Made by a program: the position numbers and the translations under genes
Shown: positions 15,988 through 26,413 of the stretch, in pieces
Numbering within the stretch: position 1 is the stretch's first letter
How the letters are laid out: the number at the start of each line of letters is the position of its first letter
The notes under the pieces: generated by a model
Told to the model about the DNA's origin: nothing
What the model saw: only the letters and a program-made list of their open reading frames with translations
The model's database searches: none
From: Adhaeribacter sp.
Lineage (GTDB): Bacteria; Bacteroidota; Bacteroidia; Cytophagales; Hymenobacteraceae
Direction: 5' to 3'
Length of the DNA stretch: 26,422 nucleotides
NCBI GenBank assembly: GCA_028288395.1
Contig: JAQBNV010000161.1
Coordinates: 1 to 26,422, forward strand

Positions 15988-16960
15988 TTATTTCAGGAAT
16001 GATAAAAACAAAATCCGTAGGCTTACCAATATTACAATTACCCCTACCATAATCATCAGAGTTTTAACCGGCAGCTTTTTAGATAAATTAGCGGCAATCG
16101 GCGCCGCTATAACGCCTCCCACAATTAGCCCGGCGATTATTTGCCAGAAGCCAATGCCAATCATGGTAAAAAACGTGAGAGAACTGGCAAAGGCAATAAA
16201 AAATTCGGCCAGGTTTACCGAGCCAATCGCAAAACGGGGCGAGCGGCCGCCGGCAATAAGGGTAGACGAAACAATCGGTCCCCAGCCGCCCCCCCCCTAC
16301 CGAATCCATAAAGCCGCCCAAAAGCGCCAAAGGTCCAATCCGGGCCGTTTTTAATTTCTTCCGGCGGGGTTTAAAGGCTTTTCTGATAATAAGCACTCCC
16401 AGCACCAAAGTATAAATTGCCACCAGCGGTTTCACCAGGTAACTGTAAGCCTCCAGGGAGGATAAAACATACGCCCCCAGAATGGCGCCGCATATGCCGG
16501 GAATAAGTAAAAGCCGGAATAATTTTTTATTTACATTTTTTAACTTCAGGTGCATTAACCCGGAGGCGCCACTCGTAAAAATTTCGGACATATGTACACT
16601 GGCACTGGCGGCACCGGGCGGCACCCCCATAGTTAATAAAAAGGTGGTAGAAGTGAGTCCATACGCCATCCCCAAGGCTCCATCTACCATCTGGGCCAGA
16701 AAGCCGCCCAGCACGTATAATAAAAATTCAGTGGTTATATTTTCGTTTAAAAATGCCACCACCTGGTTCCCGCTAATGGGCATGTAAAAAATAAACAGCA
16801 TAACCAGTACCAGGCCTGCAATAATAAACAGCAGCACCAGGTTTTGCTTTTTCATTAAACCGGAACGCGCTTGGTTAGTATCTGCCTGTACTTCGGGTAA
16901 GGCAATACTCGTAACCCTTTCTTCAGAACCTTTAGCTATTCCGGGATTGTCTTTGTTCAT
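15988..16960 (-). pseudogene. TauE/SafE family sulfite/sulfonate permease, frameshifted at a run of nine G
   Basis: The intended protein has about 323 residues and eight membrane segments. The N-terminal half is normal TauE/SafE (LGGFLAQMVDGALGMAYGLTSTTFLL, VHMSEIFTSGASGLMHLKLKNV). At 16289-16297 nine C on the plus strand (nine G in the gene) break the frame after GGFMDSVGGG: as written it goes on as RLGTDCF and stops at 16088. With eight G the reading becomes GGGGWGPIVSSTLIAGGRSP, then VNLAEFFIAFASSLTFFTM and so on to TAA at 15988, exactly the family's second half. The ATG at 16960 lies 7 bp after the DUF2490 stop, so these two form an operon. TauE/SafE proteins move sulfite, sulfonates or other small anions. 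This may be a phase-variable gene, a decayed gene or a sequencing error. Confidence 0.85.
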
Positions 16961-16967
16961 ATAAATA

Positions 16968-17753
16968 TTATCGGGAGAGAATGGAAGGGTCTTTTTTTCT
17001 GAAATCGAGGGTATGAAAGATAAAAAGCCGCAAAGCATGGGTTCTGTAAAAACGATTACCAGCCGGCAATTGCTGAAAAACCTGCATGTAACCTAGCTGG
17101 GCATTTAAATCTTTGGCGAACGGGAATCCAAAACCCGCAAAAAGCCGGTTCTGATCGAAATAATTATAGAGGATCTCTTTCCCGAAATTTACGTGCACCT
17201 CATCGTTCAGTACCAGAAACGGAATGCCCTTTTGGATAACATCTCCTTTTAAAGGGACCATTAAAGCAATCATGTACCGCGCCCGGAAGTTAAAACCATA
17301 GCCTTCCTGCAGTTCGTCGTTGGAAATATGCCGGTTAAAGCGTTCTTCGAGGCGCACCCATTGGTTGGTTTGCAGCTTTTTGCTGCGGCCCGACCAATTT
17401 ATTTGCTGCCAGGGCCGGTGTTCCGGCCGGATAGTGTGTTCGGATTCGGAGGCGGGCCAACTAGAAATATAAGCATAGCCCGCCGTAAAGCGGGTATGAT
17501 CCGAAATATGATAGGTCAATCCAGGGCGTACAATGGTTTGCGCCCAGCGATCTAAAAAATCGTTCCGGCGGGCATGTACGTCTAACCAAAGCGAAAATCT
17601 ATTTGATAAACGGGATTGGTTAAAGTAACCGAGCCAAACCTGCTCCCGATCGGTTAACTGTTTGGTCGGTGCTTGTCCGTAACTGCCACTCAAACCCACA
17701 CCCGCATAGGTAAATACCAGCAATAACCAATAATATACTTTGTTAATAGACAT
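16968..17753 (-). CDS. DUF2490 family outer-membrane protein
   Basis: A 261-residue exported protein with a signal peptide (VYYWLLLVFTYAGVGLSGSYGQA). The mature part alternates hydrophobic and polar residues like a small beta-barrel: EQVWLGYFNQSRLSNRFSLWLDVHAR, RWAQTIVRPGLTYHISDHTRFTAGYAYI, RLEERFNRH, GYGFNFRARYMIAL, LVLNDEVHVNFGKEI and FDQNRLFAGFGFPF. These are the marks of DUF2490, common in Bacteroidota and of unknown function. It ends 7 bp before the TauE/SafE start, so the two are cotranscribed; the barrel may pass the same small anion through the outer membrane, but that is a guess. A strong prx terminator sits immediately upstream, so a promoter must lie within the 75-bp gap or expression depends on read-through. 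Confidence 0.8.
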   Translation of the reverse strand: MSINKVYYWLLLVFTYAGVGLSGSYGQAPTKQLTDREQVWLGYFNQSRLSNRFSLWLDVHARRNDFLDRWAQTIVRPGLTYHISDHTRFTAGYAYISSWPASESEHTIRPEHRPWQQINWSGRSKKLQTNQWVRLEERFNRHISNDELQEGYGFNFRARYMIALMVPLKGDVIQKGIPFLVLNDEVHVNFGKEILYNYFDQNRLFAGFGFPFAKDLNAQLGYMQVFQQLPAGNRFYRTHALRLFIFHTLDFRKKDPSILSR

Positions 17754-17828: not shown

Positions 17829-18464
17829 TTATAAATTAGGCTGCGGCGTGGTGCGCAGGTAAGGCTTTATAACCGTATGGCCTTTCGGGAATTTAGCCGG
17901 AATATCTTCGTCCTTCACAGCCGGCACAATTACACAATCCTGGCCGTTTTGCCAATCGGCAGGGGTCGCTACGCTGTAGTTAGCTGTTAGCTGCAGAGAA
18001 TCTAACACCCGTAGGATCTCAGCGAAATTACGACCGGTAGAAGCCGGGTAAGTTAACTGTAGTTTAATCTTTTTATCCGGACCAATAATAAATACCGACC
18101 GTACGGTAGCCGTATCGCTGGCATTCGGATGAATCATATCGTAAAGATTCGCTATTGTTTTATCGGGGTCGGCAATCAGCGGAAAATTAACTGTTGTATT
18201 CTGGGTCTCGTTAATATCCTTAATCCAGCCCGCGTGCGAATCGAGCGGATCAACACTAATTGCAATAACCTTCGTCTGGCGTTTATCAAATTCTCCTTTT
18301 ATTCGGGCCACCGCACCGAGTTCGGTCGTACACACAGGCGTATAATCACGCGGATGCGAGAAGAAAACTGCCCAGTTATTCCCACTCCATTCGTGAAAAT
18401 TAATGGTACCTTCTGAGGTCTCAGCGGTAAAATCGGGTGCTATATCGCCTAATCTTAATGTCAT
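17829..18464 (-). CDS. 1-Cys peroxiredoxin (Prx6 type)
   Basis: A 211-residue thiol peroxidase. The active site PRDYTPVCTTE carries the peroxidatic Cys45 with P38 and T42 of the PxxxTxxC motif; Arg122 in TATVRSVFIIG completes the site. The long C-terminal arm with VATPADWQNGQDCVIVP and FPKGHTVIKPYLR is typical of the Prx6 group, which lacks a resolving cysteine and uses an outside thiol to reduce the sulfenic acid. It removes hydrogen peroxide and alkyl peroxides in the cytoplasm. Own terminator downstream. An AT-only dyad AATTTATT-N4-AATAAATT (18506-18525) lies about 40 bp before the start and might be an operator. The tRNA-Cys-like gene lies next upstream on the same strand. Confidence 0.95.
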   Translation of the reverse strand: MTLRLGDIAPDFTAETSEGTINFHEWSGNNWAVFFSHPRDYTPVCTTELGAVARIKGEFDKRQTKVIAISVDPLDSHAGWIKDINETQNTTVNFPLIADPDKTIANLYDMIHPNASDTATVRSVFIIGPDKKIKLQLTYPASTGRNFAEILRVLDSLQLTANYSVATPADWQNGQDCVIVPAVKDEDIPAKFPKGHTVIKPYLRTTPQPNL

Positions 18465-18539
18465 AACATTATATATTTTAAGGTTTGAATTAATTATTAA
18501 ACTTAAATTTATTTATTAATAAATTAAAAACCAAAGCAG

Positions 18540-18609
18540 CGCCGTGAGCGGATTCGAACCGCTGTAGAAGGTCTTGCGGACCTACGCCTCTCCTCTCGGC
18601 CACTACGGC
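18540..18609 (-). tRNA. tRNA-Cys(GCA)-like gene with irregular features
   Basis: The minus strand folds as a cloverleaf: acceptor GCCGTAG, D arm GCCGAGAGGAGAGGC, anticodon arm TAGGT-CCGCAAG-ACCTT, variable CTAC and a perfect T arm AGCGG-TTCGAAT-CCGCT. The anticodon reads GCA (Cys), and the layout matches Bacteroidota tRNA-Cys. Irregular points: position 33 is C rather than U; the 3' acceptor strand reads CACGGC where CTACGGC would pair, leaving one base bulged; the discriminator is G rather than the U that CysRS prefers; the top pair of the anticodon stem is a mismatch; CCA is not encoded. It begins 5 bp after the stop codon of the unknown gene and may be cotranscribed with it. It could be a functional odd tRNA or a decaying copy. 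Confidence 0.65.
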
Positions 18610-18614
18610 TATTT

Positions 18615-19172
18615 TTACCCAGCCAACTTTTGCCGCTGAACGTTCCGGTGCCGTCGCTGCAACACCGTGAAAACATAATCGGTAGGCCGGATATTTTCCA
18701 GAATAATACTTAACTCCTGTTCTAAAGCCGCCATATCTGCCACCTTCAGCTTAACCTTCAGAATATTCTTTTCCAGGTCGGCGGTAGACCGATGGTGCAA
18801 GAATAAGCTCTTTTGCTTTAAGGTAGCCGTAAAAATCGAGAAAGCCTCTGCGGAACCAGGCAACCGGAACGACAGTTCTTCGCCCATGTCTATTCCGATT
18901 AAGGCAGGCTCGGCTCCACCCAAACCGTTGCCTGCCCGCACGATCCGTTTACGGATAAACTGATCCAGCGCCACCACATTGCGGACCTGGTTCCGGAAGG
19001 AGGTTTTCATTTCTTCCATTTCTTTCAGCTGAAATCTGGTAATGAGAAAAAAGGAATTATCGGCCGGCGCACCCGCTGGCTGACCGGCACTCCGGGTATT
19101 AAGGGACCAGTTGCCGGTAAATGTTTCCGGATTGGAAATAGATAACGATTGATTATTCAGGGGCACATTCAT
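18615..19172 (-). CDS. Hypothetical protein, 185 residues
   Basis: I do not recognise this protein. It is soluble and has no signal peptide or membrane segment. The sequence is mixed: a Ser/Asn-rich start (LNNQSLSISNPETFTGNW), a strand SFFLITRFQLKEMEEM, a basic helix FRNQVRNVVALDQFIRKRIVR, a middle EPALIGIDMGEELSFRLPG, then ILKVKLKVADMAALEQELSIILENIRP and a basic tail VLQRRHRNVQRQKLAG. Codon use matches the genome and the frame is long and clean, so it is a real gene. It lies 142 bp downstream of the TonB receptor on the same strand and ends 5 bp before the tRNA-Cys-like gene. Whether it belongs to the receptor's transcript is open. Confidence 0.7.
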   Translation of the reverse strand: MNVPLNNQSLSISNPETFTGNWSLNTRSAGQPAGAPADNSFFLITRFQLKEMEEMKTSFRNQVRNVVALDQFIRKRIVRAGNGLGGAEPALIGIDMGEELSFRLPGSAEAFSIFTATLKQKSLFLHHRSTADLEKNILKVKLKVADMAALEQELSIILENIRPTDYVFTVLQRRHRNVQRQKLAG

Positions 19173-19314
19173 GTTGCTGACTTTAACTTATAAAAATTCG
19201 CTTTTGTACTACCGGCCTTTTTTTATAAGCTATTGCCGGTTTTAGCCCTGGGGCCTACACATGTCGTCGGTACACATTGTTTTGTTACTTTAGATAAATA
19301 TTAAATATTAAACG

Positions 19315-22218
19315 TTATTTGTTCAGCAGGCCCTCTACGGTAATGGCTACATAGTATAATGCGCCAATGGTAGGGCCAGCAGCGTATTGTATATAACGCT
19401 GGTTAAAAATATTAGTACCCCCTACTTTTATCGCCGTTTTGCGGGCCGGCATCCGGTAAGTGGCCTGGGCATCAAAAGTATGATAAGCCGGAATCGAGCC
19501 GTTGGCTAAAGTACTTTCCCATAAAAATGAATTCTGCCACCGCCATACCAGGTTAAAACCTACATTTTTAATTACTTCGCGGTTTGCAACCGACAGGTTG
19601 GTGGTCCAGGTAGGGGTATTAAAACCCGTAACAAAGATATCGGCCTGTTTATTCTCTGATATATTATTGTAGTTTACGTTACCCGCTACGGCAAATTTGC
19701 GGTAAAAATTATACGTTAAACCTAAAGCTGATCCGTAGTTATTATACTTGTTTCTGGCATTGGTATAAACGCGGTACCGGGTTTGCTGGGCCGATCGGTT
19801 AGCCGCCAGCGAAGCAATAACGGCCTCGTCGGTGCCAACCTGCGCCTGCAAGGCAGGGTCAGTTTTGGTATAAGGTACTGCTACTTCTACCTGGCCCAGA
19901 AAGCCATCGTATTCATTTGCGTAGGCATCAATATCCAATATTAATTTATTTTCCAGCCAGGTACCTTTATAGCCTATCTCAAAAGAGTTTATCCGCTCGG
20001 GCCGGGTGGCCGAAAGATTGGTGGACTGGAGTAAAGCACGGTTTTTTAACGCGGCTTCGGTGGCATTGGCGGCTTTGCCATTAGCTACCTCTTTGTTTAC
20101 AGCGGCATTAAAAGTATTTATAGAAGCTTGGGTATAAGAATTATCCAAGTAATTAAGGCCTTCGTTGATGTAGCTTAAGCCCCCTACCCGCCGAACATTG
20201 CCATTATTTACGTAAGAAATTGCTTCGAATAACGCCGGAAAGCGGAAACCATTCTGGAAGGAGGCCCGGAAATTATGGTTCTGGGCCACGGTATAAACCG
20301 CTGCAATGCGGGGATTAGGTTTAGGCGCAAATTCCGGATTGTAATCTAAGCGCAGCGAACCAAACAGCTTCAGCTTATCCTGGAAAAAGGTTTTAGTAAC
20401 CTGGGTAAAACCACCGAACTTTTTGTAATAGACGTTATCTCCGCCGGGTTGGGTTCTCTCGGAAATGGGCCGCGAAAAATCCACAAAATTATTACCATCC
20501 GGTATTACTTCGTATACCCGGGCATCTACACCCACCAGAAAATTAGCAAATTTAATGCGGTCACTAAAGTCCCACTGCGCTTCGGTGTGATACATCCGGC
20601 TCTCCTGCTTCAGCCAGGCGCCGCCGGTAGCCGGTGCCCCCGCCACTACTTTGGCATGATCCCAATTGTTAATTTTCCGGATGGTATTTTTCAAGTCTTC
20701 GAAAGCCTGGGTACCGGGCTCTACCCGGCTCTGGTCGGCTACCTGACGGGCCAGCTGCATGGCAGTAGCCAGATCGGTGCCTTTATTCAGTTCGCTCTGC
20801 AAAGAAGATTTAAATTTATTTCCCCACTCGGCATTTGAACCGCCGCTGGAAATTTCCAGGTTGTCTACCATGGGTTTCAGGTTATAAGAATCACCGGTAT
20901 TTTCAAGGGAAGCATACGCCCGGATAAAATAATTAGATCCTTTCAGCTCGACATGATGGTTCTGCACCACCACATTATCTAGTTGTACTTTATTACCCCG
21001 CTGAAAAACGCCGTCCATTTTACCCACCCGGTAGCCATAAGAAAGCTCTGCCTTTTCGCCAAGTCGGTAATGCAAGGCCGCATCAAATTTCAGGTTATCT
21101 ACATGAGGACTTACCACATCTTTTTCCCAATAGCCGGTTCTTCTTAACAGGAAAGACTGATTGGGCCTATTATTGTAAGTAATACCGCTGATGGTTACCG
21201 GATTAGCGCCGGCATCATCGCCGTATTTATTCCAGGCATCGTAAGCCGGATTATTCGTCCCAGCCAATTCGGGATACAATGGGTTGGCGGTGCTCAGGTT
21301 ATTCGGGTTCTGGTCAGTGGTAGAACTGCCGCGCCAGTCGGTGCCCCGCATGTAGCTGGCGTTTATTTTAAAAGCCCATTTATCGTTGAAAGCTTTGGCG
21401 TAGCGAATGGCGGTTTCCGTTAAAATACTCGGATCGTAATCGCGGCCATCCACGTGATTTATCCCGGTTTTCTGATAGAGACTCAGGCCTTGGTGCAGGA
21501 ACGGACTTTTGGTAATCAGGTTGGCCATGCCATTGATGGCGTTCATGCCGTACAAAGCCGAAGCGGCACCTGGCGTTATTTCTACGCTGGCAATATCCAG
21601 TTCCGTGGGGCCAATGGCGTTACCCAAAGGCACTCCTAACGTAGCCGCCTGCATATCAATGCCGTCTACCAGTTGCATAAACCGAAAGTTGTTCGGGATA
21701 TTAAAGCCACGGGTATTGGGTACTTTAAAGGTCAGGCTGGAGGTAGTCATCTGCACCCCTTTTACATTTTCGAGCGCATCGTAAAAGCTGGGAGCCGCCG
21801 TTTCCCGGATAGCCCGGATATCGAGCTTTTCGATGGCAACCGGCGATTTCAAGATACTTTCTTCTACCCGCGAGGCCATAACCACTACCTCTTTGCCGAG
21901 ATAATTCTGGGTATTCAGGGCAATATTTACTTTAGCGCCTACGCCATCTACCCTAAATTCCTGGGTTTCGAAACCAACCGACGAAAAGATTAAGGTAAAC
22001 GGAAAACTAAATTTTGTTTTAAAAACAAACTCTCCGTTGTTATTTGTAATGGTACCGGCTACCCCGCCTTTTACATATACACTAACTCCGGGCAAAGGCA
22101 CTTTTGATTCCTGATCCGTTACCTGGCCGGTTATCTGCACAATATTTGTTTCCTGAGCTTGTAAAGAAAACAGTGGGAATAACACCCCAATATAAATAAG
22201 TAATAAAAATCTTTTCAT
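19315..22218 (-). CDS. TonB-dependent outer-membrane receptor with carboxypeptidase-regulatory-like domain
   Basis: A 967-residue receptor. Residues 1-21 are a signal peptide (MKRFLLLIYIGVLFPLFSLQA). A CarboxypepD_reg-like domain (ITGQVTDQESKVPLPGVSVYVKGG to about 110) is followed by the plug (VEESILKSPVAIEKLDI, LENVKGVQMTTSSL, TRGFN, VEITPGAASALYGMNAINGMANLITK) and a 22-strand-type barrel to the C-terminus (YYVAITVEGLLNK). It has no SusD partner, so it is not a glycan-uptake pair; such lone receptors import siderophores, cobalamin or small organic ligands. A cysteine-rich 29-codon leader ORF ends 37 bp before its ATG and a perfect dyad lies upstream of that. An Rrf2 regulator and TauE/SafE permease nearby hint at a sulfur compound as ligand. 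That is an inference. Confidence 0.93.
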   Translation of the reverse strand: MKRFLLLIYIGVLFPLFSLQAQETNIVQITGQVTDQESKVPLPGVSVYVKGGVAGTITNNNGEFVFKTKFSFPFTLIFSSVGFETQEFRVDGVGAKVNIALNTQNYLGKEVVVMASRVEESILKSPVAIEKLDIRAIRETAAPSFYDALENVKGVQMTTSSLTFKVPNTRGFNIPNNFRFMQLVDGIDMQAATLGVPLGNAIGPTELDIASVEITPGAASALYGMNAINGMANLITKSPFLHQGLSLYQKTGINHVDGRDYDPSILTETAIRYAKAFNDKWAFKINASYMRGTDWRGSSTTDQNPNNLSTANPLYPELAGTNNPAYDAWNKYGDDAGANPVTISGITYNNRPNQSFLLRRTGYWEKDVVSPHVDNLKFDAALHYRLGEKAELSYGYRVGKMDGVFQRGNKVQLDNVVVQNHHVELKGSNYFIRAYASLENTGDSYNLKPMVDNLEISSGGSNAEWGNKFKSSLQSELNKGTDLATAMQLARQVADQSRVEPGTQAFEDLKNTIRKINNWDHAKVVAGAPATGGAWLKQESRMYHTEAQWDFSDRIKFANFLVGVDARVYEVIPDGNNFVDFSRPISERTQPGGDNVYYKKFGGFTQVTKTFFQDKLKLFGSLRLDYNPEFAPKPNPRIAAVYTVAQNHNFRASFQNGFRFPALFEAISYVNNGNVRRVGGLSYINEGLNYLDNSYTQASINTFNAAVNKEVANGKAANATEAALKNRALLQSTNLSATRPERINSFEIGYKGTWLENKLILDIDAYANEYDGFLGQVEVAVPYTKTDPALQAQVGTDEAVIASLAANRSAQQTRYRVYTNARNKYNNYGSALGLTYNFYRKFAVAGNVNYNNISENKQADIFVTGFNTPTWTTNLSVANREVIKNVGFNLVWRWQNSFLWESTLANGSIPAYHTFDAQATYRMPARKTAIKVGGTNIFNQRYIQYAAGPTIGALYYVAITVEGLLNK

Positions 22219-22255
22219 GTTAAATATTAAATAAAAAAACGCAAATAGAATCTGA

Positions 22256-22345
22256 CTATAAAGCTAAACAGCAGCTACAACAGCGATGTTGTAGGAAGTG
22301 GGCCGGGCAACAAAGCATACAGATGTTTAAAGCAATTTTTTTCAT
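22256..22345 (-). CDS. Cysteine-rich leader peptide, 29 residues
   Basis: ATG at 22345, TAG at 22256-22258; too short for usual gene calling. It begins MKKIALNICMLCCPAH and ends HRCCSCCLAL: seven of 29 residues are cysteine (positions 9, 12, 13, 22, 23, 25, 26), about twenty times the usual frequency. It lies on the receptor strand, 37 nt before the receptor ATG. The Cys22-Cys23 codons form one arm of a hairpin (CTACAAC/GTTGTAG, 22275-22294), so ribosome stalling on Cys codons would change the RNA fold. Amino-acid-rich leaders of this type control biosynthesis or uptake by attenuation. I translated it by hand. Chance occurrence cannot be excluded without comparison. Confidence 0.65.
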   Translation of the reverse strand: MKKIALNICMLCCPAHFLQHRCCSCCLAL

Positions 22346-22387
22346 GAAAAAATAAATCATTTTAACCAGGACAAATGTTAATTTTAG

Positions 22388-22412
22388 TTTGTCTATAGAA
22401 TAAGTAGACAAA
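22388..22412 (-). promoter_or_regulatory. Putative operator dyad upstream of the leader/TonB receptor
   Basis: TTTGTCTA and TAGACAAA form a perfect 8-bp inverted repeat with a 9-bp spacer, 43 bp upstream of the leader start codon, where an operator would lie. The nearby Rrf2 protein is a natural candidate to bind it; that is inferred from proximity only. Confidence 0.5.
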
Positions 22413-22704
22413 TAAAGTTGGATTTTACGAAATCGCCAAAGCTTTAGCTATTTAATTTGATTAAATATTAAATTAAATTTATAAATGATTAATAACCAGA
22501 CGTTTGGGTTAATTATTAGAAACAATATTTATGCCGGCAGATTACCTGTTTAGTGAAATGACATCCCAAATGCAGAATACATAACAAATATTACCCGGAA
22601 GTTCTCCGGCAGCAATATAGAAGTGGATTTAAATAGGGTAATAAATAGCCAATCGCGGCAAAACAAGCAGACTTAGCTTGCAATTGGCGGGCCTAAAAGC
22701 AACC
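22413..22704. other. Rest of the intergenic region between rrf2 and the leader/TonB receptor
   Basis: Very AT-rich, with a second weaker dyad ATTTAATTT-N11-AAATTAAAT at 22450-22478. I see no ORF of note on either strand. It must hold the promoter of the leader/receptor transcript. Confidence 0.45.
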
Positions 22705-24689: not shown

Positions 24690-25628
24690 TCAGGAAGTTT
24701 TTACATGCGCCCCCACTGGCACTACCGCACTGGCAACGCTGTTTTTCTCTTTGGTACGGCGGTTGAAGGCAAAATCCAGGCGCCCCAAGTACAAGCCATC
24801 TTTACCCACTTGGTTAATAAGGGTTTCTGCGCCGTTGGCATGGGTGATTTTTTTCGGCTCCGCCATAAACAGGTGCGAATGGCCACCCAAAATCAGGTCG
24901 ATGCCCATTACCTCGCGGGCCAGTTTCTGATCATTTACTTTGGTGGGCTCATTCGAAAAATTGTAGCCCAGGTGCGACAAACAAATAACCAGGTGGCATT
25001 TCTCTATCTCCCGCAACTGTTTTACCATTTCCTGGGCGCGGGCCAGCGGGTCGAGGTATTGGGTCTGACCAAAATTTCGGCTATCTACCAAGCCGGTCAG
25101 TTCAATTCCTAAGCCAAATACCCCTATTTTCACTTCTTCTTTCACAAAAGTTTGATAGTCTTTGAAGCGGCCTTTCAGAATGGTGCGGCTAAAATCGTAA
25201 TTAGCGGTCAGGAAAGGAAAGCCGGCGTTGGGCAACTGACGTTGTAAGCCCTCCAGCCCGTTATCAAAATCATGGTTGCCCAGGGTAGCGGCATTGTACT
25301 GCATTTGGGTCATGAGTTTGTATTCCAGTTCGCCATCAAACAAATTAAAATACGGGGTTCCCTGCCAGATATCGCCTGAATCGAGGAGTAAAACATTTTT
25401 TTCCTGGCTCCGGATTTGCTTTACCAAGTGCGCCCGCCGCGCCATGCCGCCTAACCCGGCATTGGACCGGCCGTCGTTCGGGTAGGGATCGATGCGGGAG
25501 TGCACATCGTTGGTATGCAAAATAGTTAACTGTACCTGATCGGCGGCCCAGGTGGGAGTCGGCAAACCCAGTAAGCTTAACCCGGTTGCTCCGGCTACCG
25601 AAGTTCTGATAAAATCTCTTCTTTTCAT
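24690..25628 (-). CDS. 5'-nucleotidase-type metallophosphatase (N-terminal domain protein, Tat-exported)
   Basis: A 312-residue exported hydrolase. The N-terminus MKRRDFIRTSVAGATGLSLLG is a twin-arginine signal. The calcineurin-like metal site is complete: HTNDVHSRI, LLDSGDIWQG, ATLGNHDFDNG, CLSHLGYN and GGHSHLF. These match the catalytic half of UshA-type 5'-nucleotidases, which take phosphate from nucleotides in the periplasm. It lacks the substrate-binding C-terminal domain, which is encoded by the preceding gene 23 bp upstream, so the enzyme is probably a two-chain complex made from one operon. In the family the two domains are usually one chain. Confidence 0.92.
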   Translation of the reverse strand: MKRRDFIRTSVAGATGLSLLGLPTPTWAADQVQLTILHTNDVHSRIDPYPNDGRSNAGLGGMARRAHLVKQIRSQEKNVLLLDSGDIWQGTPYFNLFDGELEYKLMTQMQYNAATLGNHDFDNGLEGLQRQLPNAGFPFLTANYDFSRTILKGRFKDYQTFVKEEVKIGVFGLGIELTGLVDSRNFGQTQYLDPLARAQEMVKQLREIEKCHLVICLSHLGYNFSNEPTKVNDQKLAREVMGIDLILGGHSHLFMAEPKKITHANGAETLINQVGKDGLYLGRLDFAFNRRTKEKNSVASAVVPVGAHVKTS

Positions 25629-25651
25629 TTAAAATAAATGCCCCCGTTTTC

Positions 25652-26413
25652 TTACTGCACTTTCATCCGGCCGTCTACGTGGGCCTCAATGGGTTTCTTT
25701 TGGGCCGTTAGTTGCTTAATATGCCTAATCAGGGCCTCGCGAACCAAAATACCGGTTGGCTCTACATGGGTAGCCTCTTTCAGGAAAAACAAATCATCGC
25801 CCCCGTTGGCCAGGTAATCCGACATTACCAGGGTATAACTACGCCCAGGCTGTAGGGGCTTACCGTTTATGCTAATATTTTCTGCCTTGCCGTTCCGAAT
25901 AGTAAAGCTGGCATTTTTCATAATCAGGTTTTTGTATTGGGCACCGTGTTCGAACAACTTTTGCATAGTGGTCCCCGGCAAAGTAACCACAACCAACTGG
26001 TTTTCGAAGGGCGACAGCTCAAAAATATTACTCAGGGTAACGGCTCCCTGCGGGATAGAGGCCCGTAATCCCCCGGTGGTCATCAGGCTTATATCTATCG
26101 GCTTCTGATAAAGTGGCAAAACCTGGGCCATTTGCACATCCGCTACAAAGTTACCCAGCGCCGATTCGCCGCCACTTACCTTTTTGAGTTCCTGCGCCGA
26201 ATAACCCAGCACTTCGTTCATGCGCTGCTCTAATTGCTGGCGGTAAGGGGCTATCATGGCTTCGGCTAGGAGATTTACCGGAATACTGGCATCTACCTTA
26301 ATATCGGTATCCGGCCGCAGCCGGGCAGAAGGAACCAGCGTTTGCTGGCAGGAAAAGAACAGTAAACTAAAGCAGAGACTATAAATCAGTTGCCGATGGC
26401 GAATGAAAATCAT
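25652..26413 (-). CDS. 5'-nucleotidase C-terminal domain lipoprotein
   Basis: A 253-residue protein with a lipoprotein signal (LIYSLCFSLLFFSC, Cys22 the likely anchor). It matches the 5_nucleotid_C domain: SALGNFVADVQ, DISLMTTGGLRASIPQGAVTLSNIFELSPFENQLVVVTLPG and YTLVMSDYLANGGDDLFFL. This domain binds the nucleotide base through stacking aromatics and guides it to the metal site of the partner. Here it is a separate, membrane-anchored polypeptide, made first in an operon with the Tat-exported phosphatase. The start lies close to the window edge; another ATG just upstream cannot be excluded. Confidence 0.9.
   Translation of the reverse strand: MIFIRHRQLIYSLCFSLLFFSCQQTLVPSARLRPDTDIKVDASIPVNLLAEAMIAPYRQQLEQRMNEVLGYSAQELKKVSGGESALGNFVADVQMAQVLPLYQKPIDISLMTTGGLRASIPQGAVTLSNIFELSPFENQLVVVTLPGTTMQKLFEHGAQYKNLIMKNASFTIRNGKAENISINGKPLQPGRSYTLVMSDYLANGGDDLFFLKEATHVEPTGILVREALIRHIKQLTAQKKPIEAHVDGRMKVQ

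Follow-up and report, generated by a model that had tools for sequence, protein, structure and literature searches.

A short cysteine-rich open reading frame (ORF) of 29 codons, which precedes the gene of a TonB-dependent receptor in Adhaeribacter sp., is, as judged by comparison of related sequences, a real and conserved cysteine-codon leader, and it can be read with good confidence as encoding a leader peptide that senses Cys-tRNA shortage from a position behind an Rrf2-type operator. Uptake genes of Bacteroidota, i.e., those for TonB receptors and SusC/SusD, are usually discussed as substrate-controlled. Here, sulfur-linked outer-membrane systems appear to be placed under the control of the cell's own cysteine supply via the ribosome on the leader. 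The initial annotation had proposed a cysteine-sensing leader for outer-membrane uptake, and this proposal is supported by the leaders of orthologous receptors, by sulfate-assimilation genes neighbouring the receptor in two genera, by leaders before other sulfur genes and by promoter-like elements upstream. The sequence analysed, here called the window, is a stretch of 26,422 nucleotides from a draft assembly (3.95 Mb, completeness 78.6%), and all unassigned positions refer to it. The nearest named relatives by receptor identity are Adhaeribacter aerolatus and A. rhizoryzae (92 and 91%).

The leader ORF and its gene row

Leader, hairpin, spacer and receptor are arranged as follows:

22256..22345, minus strand: cysteine-rich leader ORF, 29 codons plus stop codon, MKKIALNICMLCCPAHFLQHRCCSCCLAL
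22275..22294, minus strand: 8-bp hairpin CTACAACA-TCGC-TGTTGTAG, containing Cys codons 22 and 23
22219..22255, minus strand: 37-nt spacer that presumably serves as the receptor's translation initiation region
19315..22218, minus strand: TonB-dependent receptor of 967 aa (CarbopepD_reg_2, Plug, barrel)

The receptor starts with the ATG at 22218 on the minus strand. The seven Cys codons (9, 12, 13, 22, 23, 25 and 26) ascribed to the 29-codon ORF in the initial annotation were confirmed, as was the distance of 37 nt from its stop codon to the receptor ATG; the hairpin reported there does enclose codons 22 and 23, although its stem comprises 8 bp instead of 7. An alternative in-frame ATG at 22360 would give a leader of 34 codons, and the 29-codon version is the better reading because the leaders of the two closest species begin at the MKK/MKT position. 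In dinucleotide shuffles of 22219-22704, an ATG-initiated short ORF (sORF) with at least seven Cys codons arose in 6 of 2000 and four Cys within five codons in 3 of 2000. The predicted fold of the leader RNA was no better than that of shuffles (z -0.63), and an NCBIfam search with the leader gave no match up to an E-value of 10. A chance ORF was ruled out by the conservation of the leader among receptor orthologues.

Downstream of the receptor the row continues with the following features:

19242..19277, minus strand: second mini-leader MCTDDMCRPQG, between the receptor and the next gene
18615..19172, minus strand: 185-aa protein without Pfam or NCBIfam match
18539..18610, minus strand: divergent gene for tRNA-Cys(GCA), part of the same row
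17829..18464, minus strand: peroxiredoxin (AhpC-TSA, 1-cysPrx_C)
16968..17753, minus strand: DUF2490 protein
16088..17038, minus strand: TauE/SafE family protein

In Rufibacter latericius, a DUF2490 protein is likewise encoded downstream of the receptor. Upstream of the receptor lie an Rrf2-family gene and dnaA. The Rrf2 gene, the second mini-leader, the Cys identity of the tRNA and the promoter-like pair described below had escaped the initial annotation. Two adjacent ORFs at 24690-26413 (minus strand) correspond to two parts of UshA-type proteins, namely the metallophosphatase part and the 5'-nucleotidase C-terminal part. A PDB sequence search with the receptor returned the colicin I receptor alone (~1e-6), which is uninformative on the substrate.

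Conservation of the leader among receptor orthologues

Receptor orthologues were collected in two sets, one of 21 receptors that are 63-92% identical, drawn from 59 relatives with eight weaker loci (L024-L031) omitted, and one comprising the best 80 of 117 loci that came from named genomes or from metagenome-assembled genomes. After duplicates of named loci were dropped (L003, L004, L009, L010 and L012), the final sample consisted of 16 plus 80 loci plus the window, i.e., 97 loci, 95 of which had 300 nt of upstream sequence. An ATG-initiated sORF with at least three Cys in four codons was found upstream of 34 of these 95 receptors, the best 80 of 117 loci included, and in 18 of 828 control regions upstream of other ORFs in the same loci; this threshold was picked after examples had been seen. 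sORFs with the dipeptide CC were found upstream of 52 of the 95 receptors compared to 70 of the 828 control regions. Cys was the commonest clustered residue at all four thresholds applied, the runner-up at three in four codons being Leu (15/95). As the loci are phylogenetically clustered and the species related, these counts are descriptive and non-independent. Some of the control matches themselves belong to genes in sulfur neighbourhoods, such as a PhyH gene (L046) and a SusC-type gene that shares its row with a sulfatase (L084). The expectation that orthologous upstream regions carry the Cys-rich ORF holds across several Bacteroidota families, although a dense Cys sORF is absent upstream of 61 of the 95 receptors.

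The Cys-rich leader is kept in six of the eight Adhaeribacter loci (weak in L007, absent in L005 and L008) and in all seven loci of the Rufibacter group. It is also present in Pedobacter, Mucilaginibacter, Flavihumibacter, Ferruginibacter, Chryseobacterium and others, with a different remaining peptide, and no such leader was seen upstream of the receptor in Chitinophaga, L005, L008 and L011. Examples are SCCCCYFA (A. rhizoryzae), QPCCCCR (Rufibacter latericius), SASCCCCR (Mucilaginibacter), MMLKRCCC (Pedobacter), DRCCC (Flavihumibacter) and ASRCCCK (Ferruginibacter). These peptides have the Cys run in common and little else, and the run is mostly located near the end. The leader stop codon lies 37-60 nt before the receptor ATG in 21 of 33 leaders.

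It is conceivable that the TGY run acts as an untranslated nucleic-acid element, i.e., as an RNA structure or a protein-binding site, since a TGTTG core recurs and is part of the hairpin in the window. This reading is extremely improbable, as the runs are in frame with an ATG, have a stop codon at the end and use both Cys codons (TGT 89 and TGC 45 times in the 33 leaders); moreover, the folds differ among species, and Rfam at gathering threshold gives the tRNA as its sole match in the window.

The second mini-leader recurs within the genus. The two nearest species encode MCTDDMCSPQG and MCTKDRCSPQG at this position, and an sORF with at least two Cys is found between the receptor and the next gene in all eight Adhaeribacter loci; in other genera, a Cys sORF occurs at this position in one of seven loci (L037).

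Promoter-like elements, operator-like dyad and Rrf2-family regulator

Upstream of the leader, putative elements of transcriptional control can be recognised:

22437..22440, minus strand: -33 promoter-like element TTTG, as part of TTTG-N20-TTTATTTG
22409..22416, minus strand: -7 promoter-like element TTTATTTG, overlapping the dyad
22388..22412, no strand assigned: operator-like dyad TTTGTCTA-N9-TAGACAAA
22705..23145, minus strand: Rrf2-family regulator, candidate binder of the dyad

The reading of TTTG-N20-TTTATTTG as a promoter leans on the Bacteroidota promoter consensus, and the same layout of promoter and dyad was seen by eye in relatives and at paralogous sites. The dyad is perfect, as had been claimed, although it lies 42 nt and not 43 before the leader ATG. 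It is the sole exact copy in its own, incomplete assembly. Some perfect dyad of 8 bp whose arms are 3-15 nt apart was found in 123 of 500 shuffles, so that the dyad alone is not significant and is regarded as real because it is conserved: when one mismatch at most is allowed, the 400 nt before the receptor contain GTCTA-N9-TAGAC in 48 of 94 cases (including the best 80 of 117 loci) compared to 36 of 825 control regions. In six of seven Rufibacter-group loci, dyad and promoter are located further upstream, before the tRNA gene that precedes the leader. With its start inside the second promoter-like element, the dyad has a repressor-like position, and it is more plausibly a putative operator for transcription than a component of the leader mechanism.

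The dyad would be occupied, probably by the neighbouring Rrf2-family protein. In 18 of the 97 loci, among them the window, an Rrf2 homologue is encoded in the fetched sequence, at a distance of up to ~9 kb, L013 being a match of 37 aa only. The Rrf2-family protein of the window scores 81.1 bits against the CymR model, its best match after the superfamily, which is below the cut-off of 195 bits.

A search for TTTGTCTA-N9-TAGA in ten close genomes gave 27 rows compared to 9 for the reversed control, and the 27 rows represent 26 distinct places: nine receptors, nine SusC-type genes, one peroxiredoxin-like gene and seven others, six of which have no clear sulfur link (L161 was left out). The dyad, for which a search of genomes had been suggested, is found upstream of receptors and SusC-type genes in close relatives. 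A general pattern of the dyad was not enriched in 12 more distant genomes (21 rows compared to 22 for the reversed control); its 17 loci there included three receptors with leaders, one PhyH gene with a leader and one peroxiredoxin-like gene. Peroxiredoxin look-alikes, identified by eye, directly follow the dyad in L149 (Rufibacter) and L193 (Chryseobacterium).

The dyad and the Rrf2-family regulator might alone control the receptor, with the leader of the window as a relic. Such a scheme would fit the dyads that are kept where the leader is missing, e.g., in Chitinophaga, L005 and L008, as well as the adjacency of the Rrf2 gene and the receptor in Adhaeribacter and two Adhaeribacter sulfatase loci (L171 and L172, which are the leaderless SusC sites L153 and L154) that have a dyad and no Cys leader. 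It is nevertheless distinctly unlikely, given that all seven Cys codons are kept though much of the leader differs from those of the two nearest species, and that a second Cys mini-leader lies behind the receptor.

Sulfur context and leaders before other genes

The locus presents a Cys-codon-rich short ORF upstream of a sulfur-linked gene, as expected of a cysteine leader attenuator. In Flavihumibacter petaseus, the receptor row encodes a CysJ-like flavoprotein, a NIR_SIR sulfite reductase, a PALP enzyme and two PAPS_reduct proteins, and the receptor is followed by a siroheme-TauE protein and a CysN-like GTPase. The receptor row of Chryseobacterium oranimense is similar, the NIR_SIR protein and the CysN-like GTPase being confirmed by Pfam and the others being named by eye. 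From these neighbouring genes we infer that the receptor supplies sulfur. Chromate-transporter and ChrB-type genes are also present near the receptor in L034 (by Pfam) and in L044, L066 and L084 (by eye).

Six of the nine SusC-type dyad sites have a Cys-rich sORF (L146, L155, L163, L164, L166 and L167) and three have none (L153, L154 and L158). An Oxidored_molyb protein is encoded downstream of three leader-bearing SusC sites (extended as L174, L173 and L169), and sulfatases are encoded downstream at the leaderless L171 and L172. Just before the SusC start, a conserved hairpin-like stretch (CCTCTGG, CAGGC) was aligned by eye in L155, L163, L164, L166, L146 and L167. The 5' regions of these leader-bearing SusC genes gave no Rfam match. 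The leader of Rhodocytophaga (L084) ends in GRCCCCR and stands before a SusC-type gene whose row also encodes a sulfatase, and in Pedobacter metabolipauper the dyad and MIKTQHILTAYRMRMPFSKGACCCYCCC are found before a PhyH gene. Among 30 CysD loci, there was one leader outside other ORFs and a dyad in none, so that CysD was discarded as a test of the regulon. The cysC gene of the same assembly has 410 nt of sequence before it, in which no leader was seen by eye.

The nascent Cys-rich peptide might instead sense a metal such as copper in the manner of CutF, so that metal-dependent arrest would regulate the receptor. In Bordetella, a TonB receptor is preceded by an upstream ORF that responds to copper, which would fit this idea. 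The regulation of metal genes by CutF-like proteins with Cu-binding motifs, described in PMC9973294, also speaks for it. The leaders, read by eye, do not show the CutF feature set of signal peptide, Cu motif and proline-rich C-terminus, the spacing of their Cys residues ranges between CC and CCCCC, and they lie in a sulfur-assimilation neighbourhood; metal sensing is therefore considered very unlikely.

Poly-Cys leaders at the cysteine-synthase operon

In the complete Adhaeribacter genome G004, TGYTGYTGYTGY gave 67 matches compared to 29 for the control, which represent 57 distinct CCCC sites; in a second genome (G033), there were 116 matches compared to 30, and sites were classed in G004 only. 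Four of the 57 sites are in-frame intergenic ATG-sORFs before a gene, and the others are inside or antisense to longer ORFs or have no class. The genes that follow the four sORFs encode a SusC protein, a PALP protein of cysteine-synthase type and a Pyr_redox protein beside a ferredoxin-like ORF, and the last one lies 460 nt away from its sORF, which is probably due to chance. The cysteine-synthase-type gene is the first of its row, in which Prok-JAB, ThiF and PAPS_reduct genes are also found. Two tandem poly-Cys leaders with an intrinsic terminator after each precede this operon in five of the six closest homologues (L267-L271, not L272), the terminators originating from a custom scan, while the tool's own scan gives the first of the two in L265. 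In 14 more distant cysteine-synthase homologues (L273-L286; L287-L296 were left out), no such leader was found. Terminators also follow two of 14 other leaders, i.e., L138 before cysC in a member of another family and the second leader of L020. As judged by the terminators at the cysteine-synthase and cysC genes, poly-Cys leaders are terminator-coupled at least at some cysteine genes of the phylum.

tRNA-Cys genes linked to the receptor

ARAGORN detected 25 tRNAs in 100 loci, i.e., 23 in 97 loci without those of the duplicates L009 and L010. In 19 of the 97 loci, the best 80 of 117 included, the receptor start has a tRNA-Cys gene, mostly divergent from the housekeeping type, at a distance of less than 4 kb (window, L032-L036, L038, L039, L042, L044, L055, L066, L069, L073, L081, L083, L084, L087 and L091). 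Eighteen are encoded on the receptor strand, and the one in L084 shares its strand with the SusC-sulfatase row; in the Pedobacter loci L044 and L066, opposite-strand genes lie between tRNA and receptor. Nine linked tRNA-Cys have A1 opposite G72, together with U73, those of Adhaeribacter and Rufibacter show other changes in the acceptor end, and the L084 copy is ordinary-looking by eye. A match to a housekeeping-type tRNA-Cys (83-100% identity) was present elsewhere in all ten genomes asked. In a class-wide search, the A1/G72 tRNA-Cys pattern was found in 0 of 395 genomes although it matches nine loci, and this type is therefore rare or patchy. In Rufibacter immobilis, a gene labelled tRNA-Phe(GAA) (L037, 8596-8667) aligns with the linked tRNA-Cys of Rufibacter, which suggests drift or a non-decoding role.

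Operator, poly-Cys leader, sulfur-linked receptor and variant tRNA-Cys may together form a cysteine-economy module of Bacteroidota, in which the variant tRNA joins in sensing or donates Cys; as a whole, this extended reading is unlikely. If it were true, the module would carry on its transcript, in Adhaeribacter and Rufibacter, a second tRNA-Cys of its own, the acceptor end of which is abnormal; elsewhere, the variant tRNA-Cys, with A1 opposite G72 in nine loci, is found nearby. A tRNA-Cys of this kind, induced upon starvation and poorly charged or excluded from translation, would tune the stalling on the leader, or, alternatively, it would act outside the ribosome as a donor of Cys. A separate and sharper question is posed by the variant tRNA-Cys genes linked to the receptor.

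Proposed mechanism and output step

The leader is supported by comparison, namely by its Cys codons, the sulfur-linked receptor, the promoter-like elements, other sulfur genes that share the dyad or the leader type, and the terminator-coupled leaders at the cysteine-synthase operon of relatives. We infer that it is translated, that the ribosome stalls on it, in which direction the receptor responds and by which output step. The transcript would start inside or just after the dyad, the occupancy of which would set initiation, and a ribosome would then translate the leader. With Cys-tRNA plentiful, the ribosome would pass the Cys codons and terminate, and the receptor would be poorly expressed; with Cys-tRNA scarce, it would stall at the Cys cluster near the leader end and receptor expression would rise. 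As stalling would raise receptor expression, sulfur uptake would be switched on by a shortage of its product. To judge from the sequences, stalling at the Cys codons is likely to be the sensor. Since the leader is conserved in several Bacteroidota families and occurs before other sulfur genes, it is most likely that a cysteine-short ribosome activates sulfur scavenging.

How stalling is passed on to the receptor is less certain. A translational route is a tentative choice, rated at slightly less than even odds. In a comparison with shuffles, the 5' codons of the leader pair with the receptor start region at p<0.05 in nine of 12 leaders of the Adhaeribacter/Rufibacter group and in 11 of 31 leaders overall, and this pairing is not significant in the window (p 0.46), L006 (0.745) and L033 (0.15). 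The swapped-arm control is weak, the means of cognate and swapped arms differing by less than 1 SD in each group, and RNAalifold did not recover the helix of leader and receptor start in the Rufibacter group. As a general feature, a long-range helix of the leader with the receptor start was therefore rejected, as it fails in the window, reaches 11 of 31 overall and is only slightly better than swapped arms. The modelled accessibility of the start region is nearly equal for ribosomes stalled at the Cys cluster and for those that have reached the stop codon, the window showing a decrease from 0.54 to 0.37; with no useful difference between a stalled and a terminating ribosome, this accessibility model was rejected. 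A stalled ribosome together with queued followers could keep the helix open.

As the main alternative, the same leader could have a transcriptional output, a moving or stalled ribosome deciding on termination by Rho or at an unrecognised terminator before the receptor. The leader-terminator pairs at the cysteine-synthase operon of the same clade and the terminators after two of the 14 other leaders point in this direction, and in the window the leader hairpin is terminator-like in a loose scan (tail CTGCTGTTTA). This is set against the custom scan, which gave a terminator between leader and receptor in one of 33 receptor leaders and in 0 of 6 SusC leader regions, and Rho-type or other termination is held to be fairly unlikely. 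A classical terminator/antiterminator attenuator at the receptor was rejected, with no terminator in 32 of 33 leaders in the custom scan, the looser scan giving the hairpin of the window.

Bacteroidota are a phylum with little use of Shine-Dalgarno sequences. The set of leaders offers testable target genes and a handle on translation-coupled control that operates without Shine-Dalgarno sites.

Comparison with known systems

The initial annotation had considered an undescribed regulatory system, which needs to be narrowed: poly-Cys leaders are known in Actinobacteria, although none was found described for Bacteroidota. A literature search, with supplements and most subscription papers outside its scope, returned no Cys leader for Bacteroidota or before TonB receptors. 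For Bacteroidota, the transcriptome of Flavobacterium psychrophilum gave clues of leader-peptide attenuation upstream of amino-acid biosynthesis operons, cysteine being unmentioned in the available part of the paper (PMC9723704), and a Bacteroides map, in its accessible text, contains sORFs in 5' UTRs (PMC7366714).

Like CymR, the regulator adjoining the receptor belongs to the Rrf2 family; unlike CymR, its score is far under the 195-bit cut-off, and the dyad is a candidate binding site. With CutF, as portrayed in the available portion of PMC9973294, the leader would share the control of the next gene's translation by an upstream ORF, whereas CutF is exported and has a signal peptide as well as Cu-binding and proline-rich motifs. 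In archaea and some bacteria, tRNA-Cys genes have SepCysS and sulfur genes as neighbours, and the parts of PMC5424206 at hand describe a tie to SepRS/SepCysS as a feature of these systems; what they have in common with the loci studied here is a tRNA-Cys gene among sulfur-metabolism genes. In Rhodobacterales, uORFC-8-2 has tandem Cys codons upstream of cysS, for which ribosome-mediated attenuation was proposed (PMC8632094, available sections). It resembles the present leaders as an upstream ORF with tandem Cys codons and differs by its conserved stems and terminator, its occurrence only before cysS and its restriction to alphaproteobacteria, as given in these sections.

The leaders of Actinobacteria, as far as the excerpts of PMC1262725 and of PMC9094748, which cites Canestrari et al. 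2020, report, are poly-Cys leaders before cys genes. Likewise, both groups comprise short ORFs with Cys runs near the stop codon before cysteine genes, common descent not being claimed, and for the Mycobacterium leaders, too, no conserved terminator hairpins are recorded in the accessible part of PMC1262725. Unlike the actinobacterial leaders described there, those presented here belong to Bacteroidota, precede TonB receptors and SusC-type genes, lie behind a dyad and often have a tRNA-Cys gene in their vicinity.
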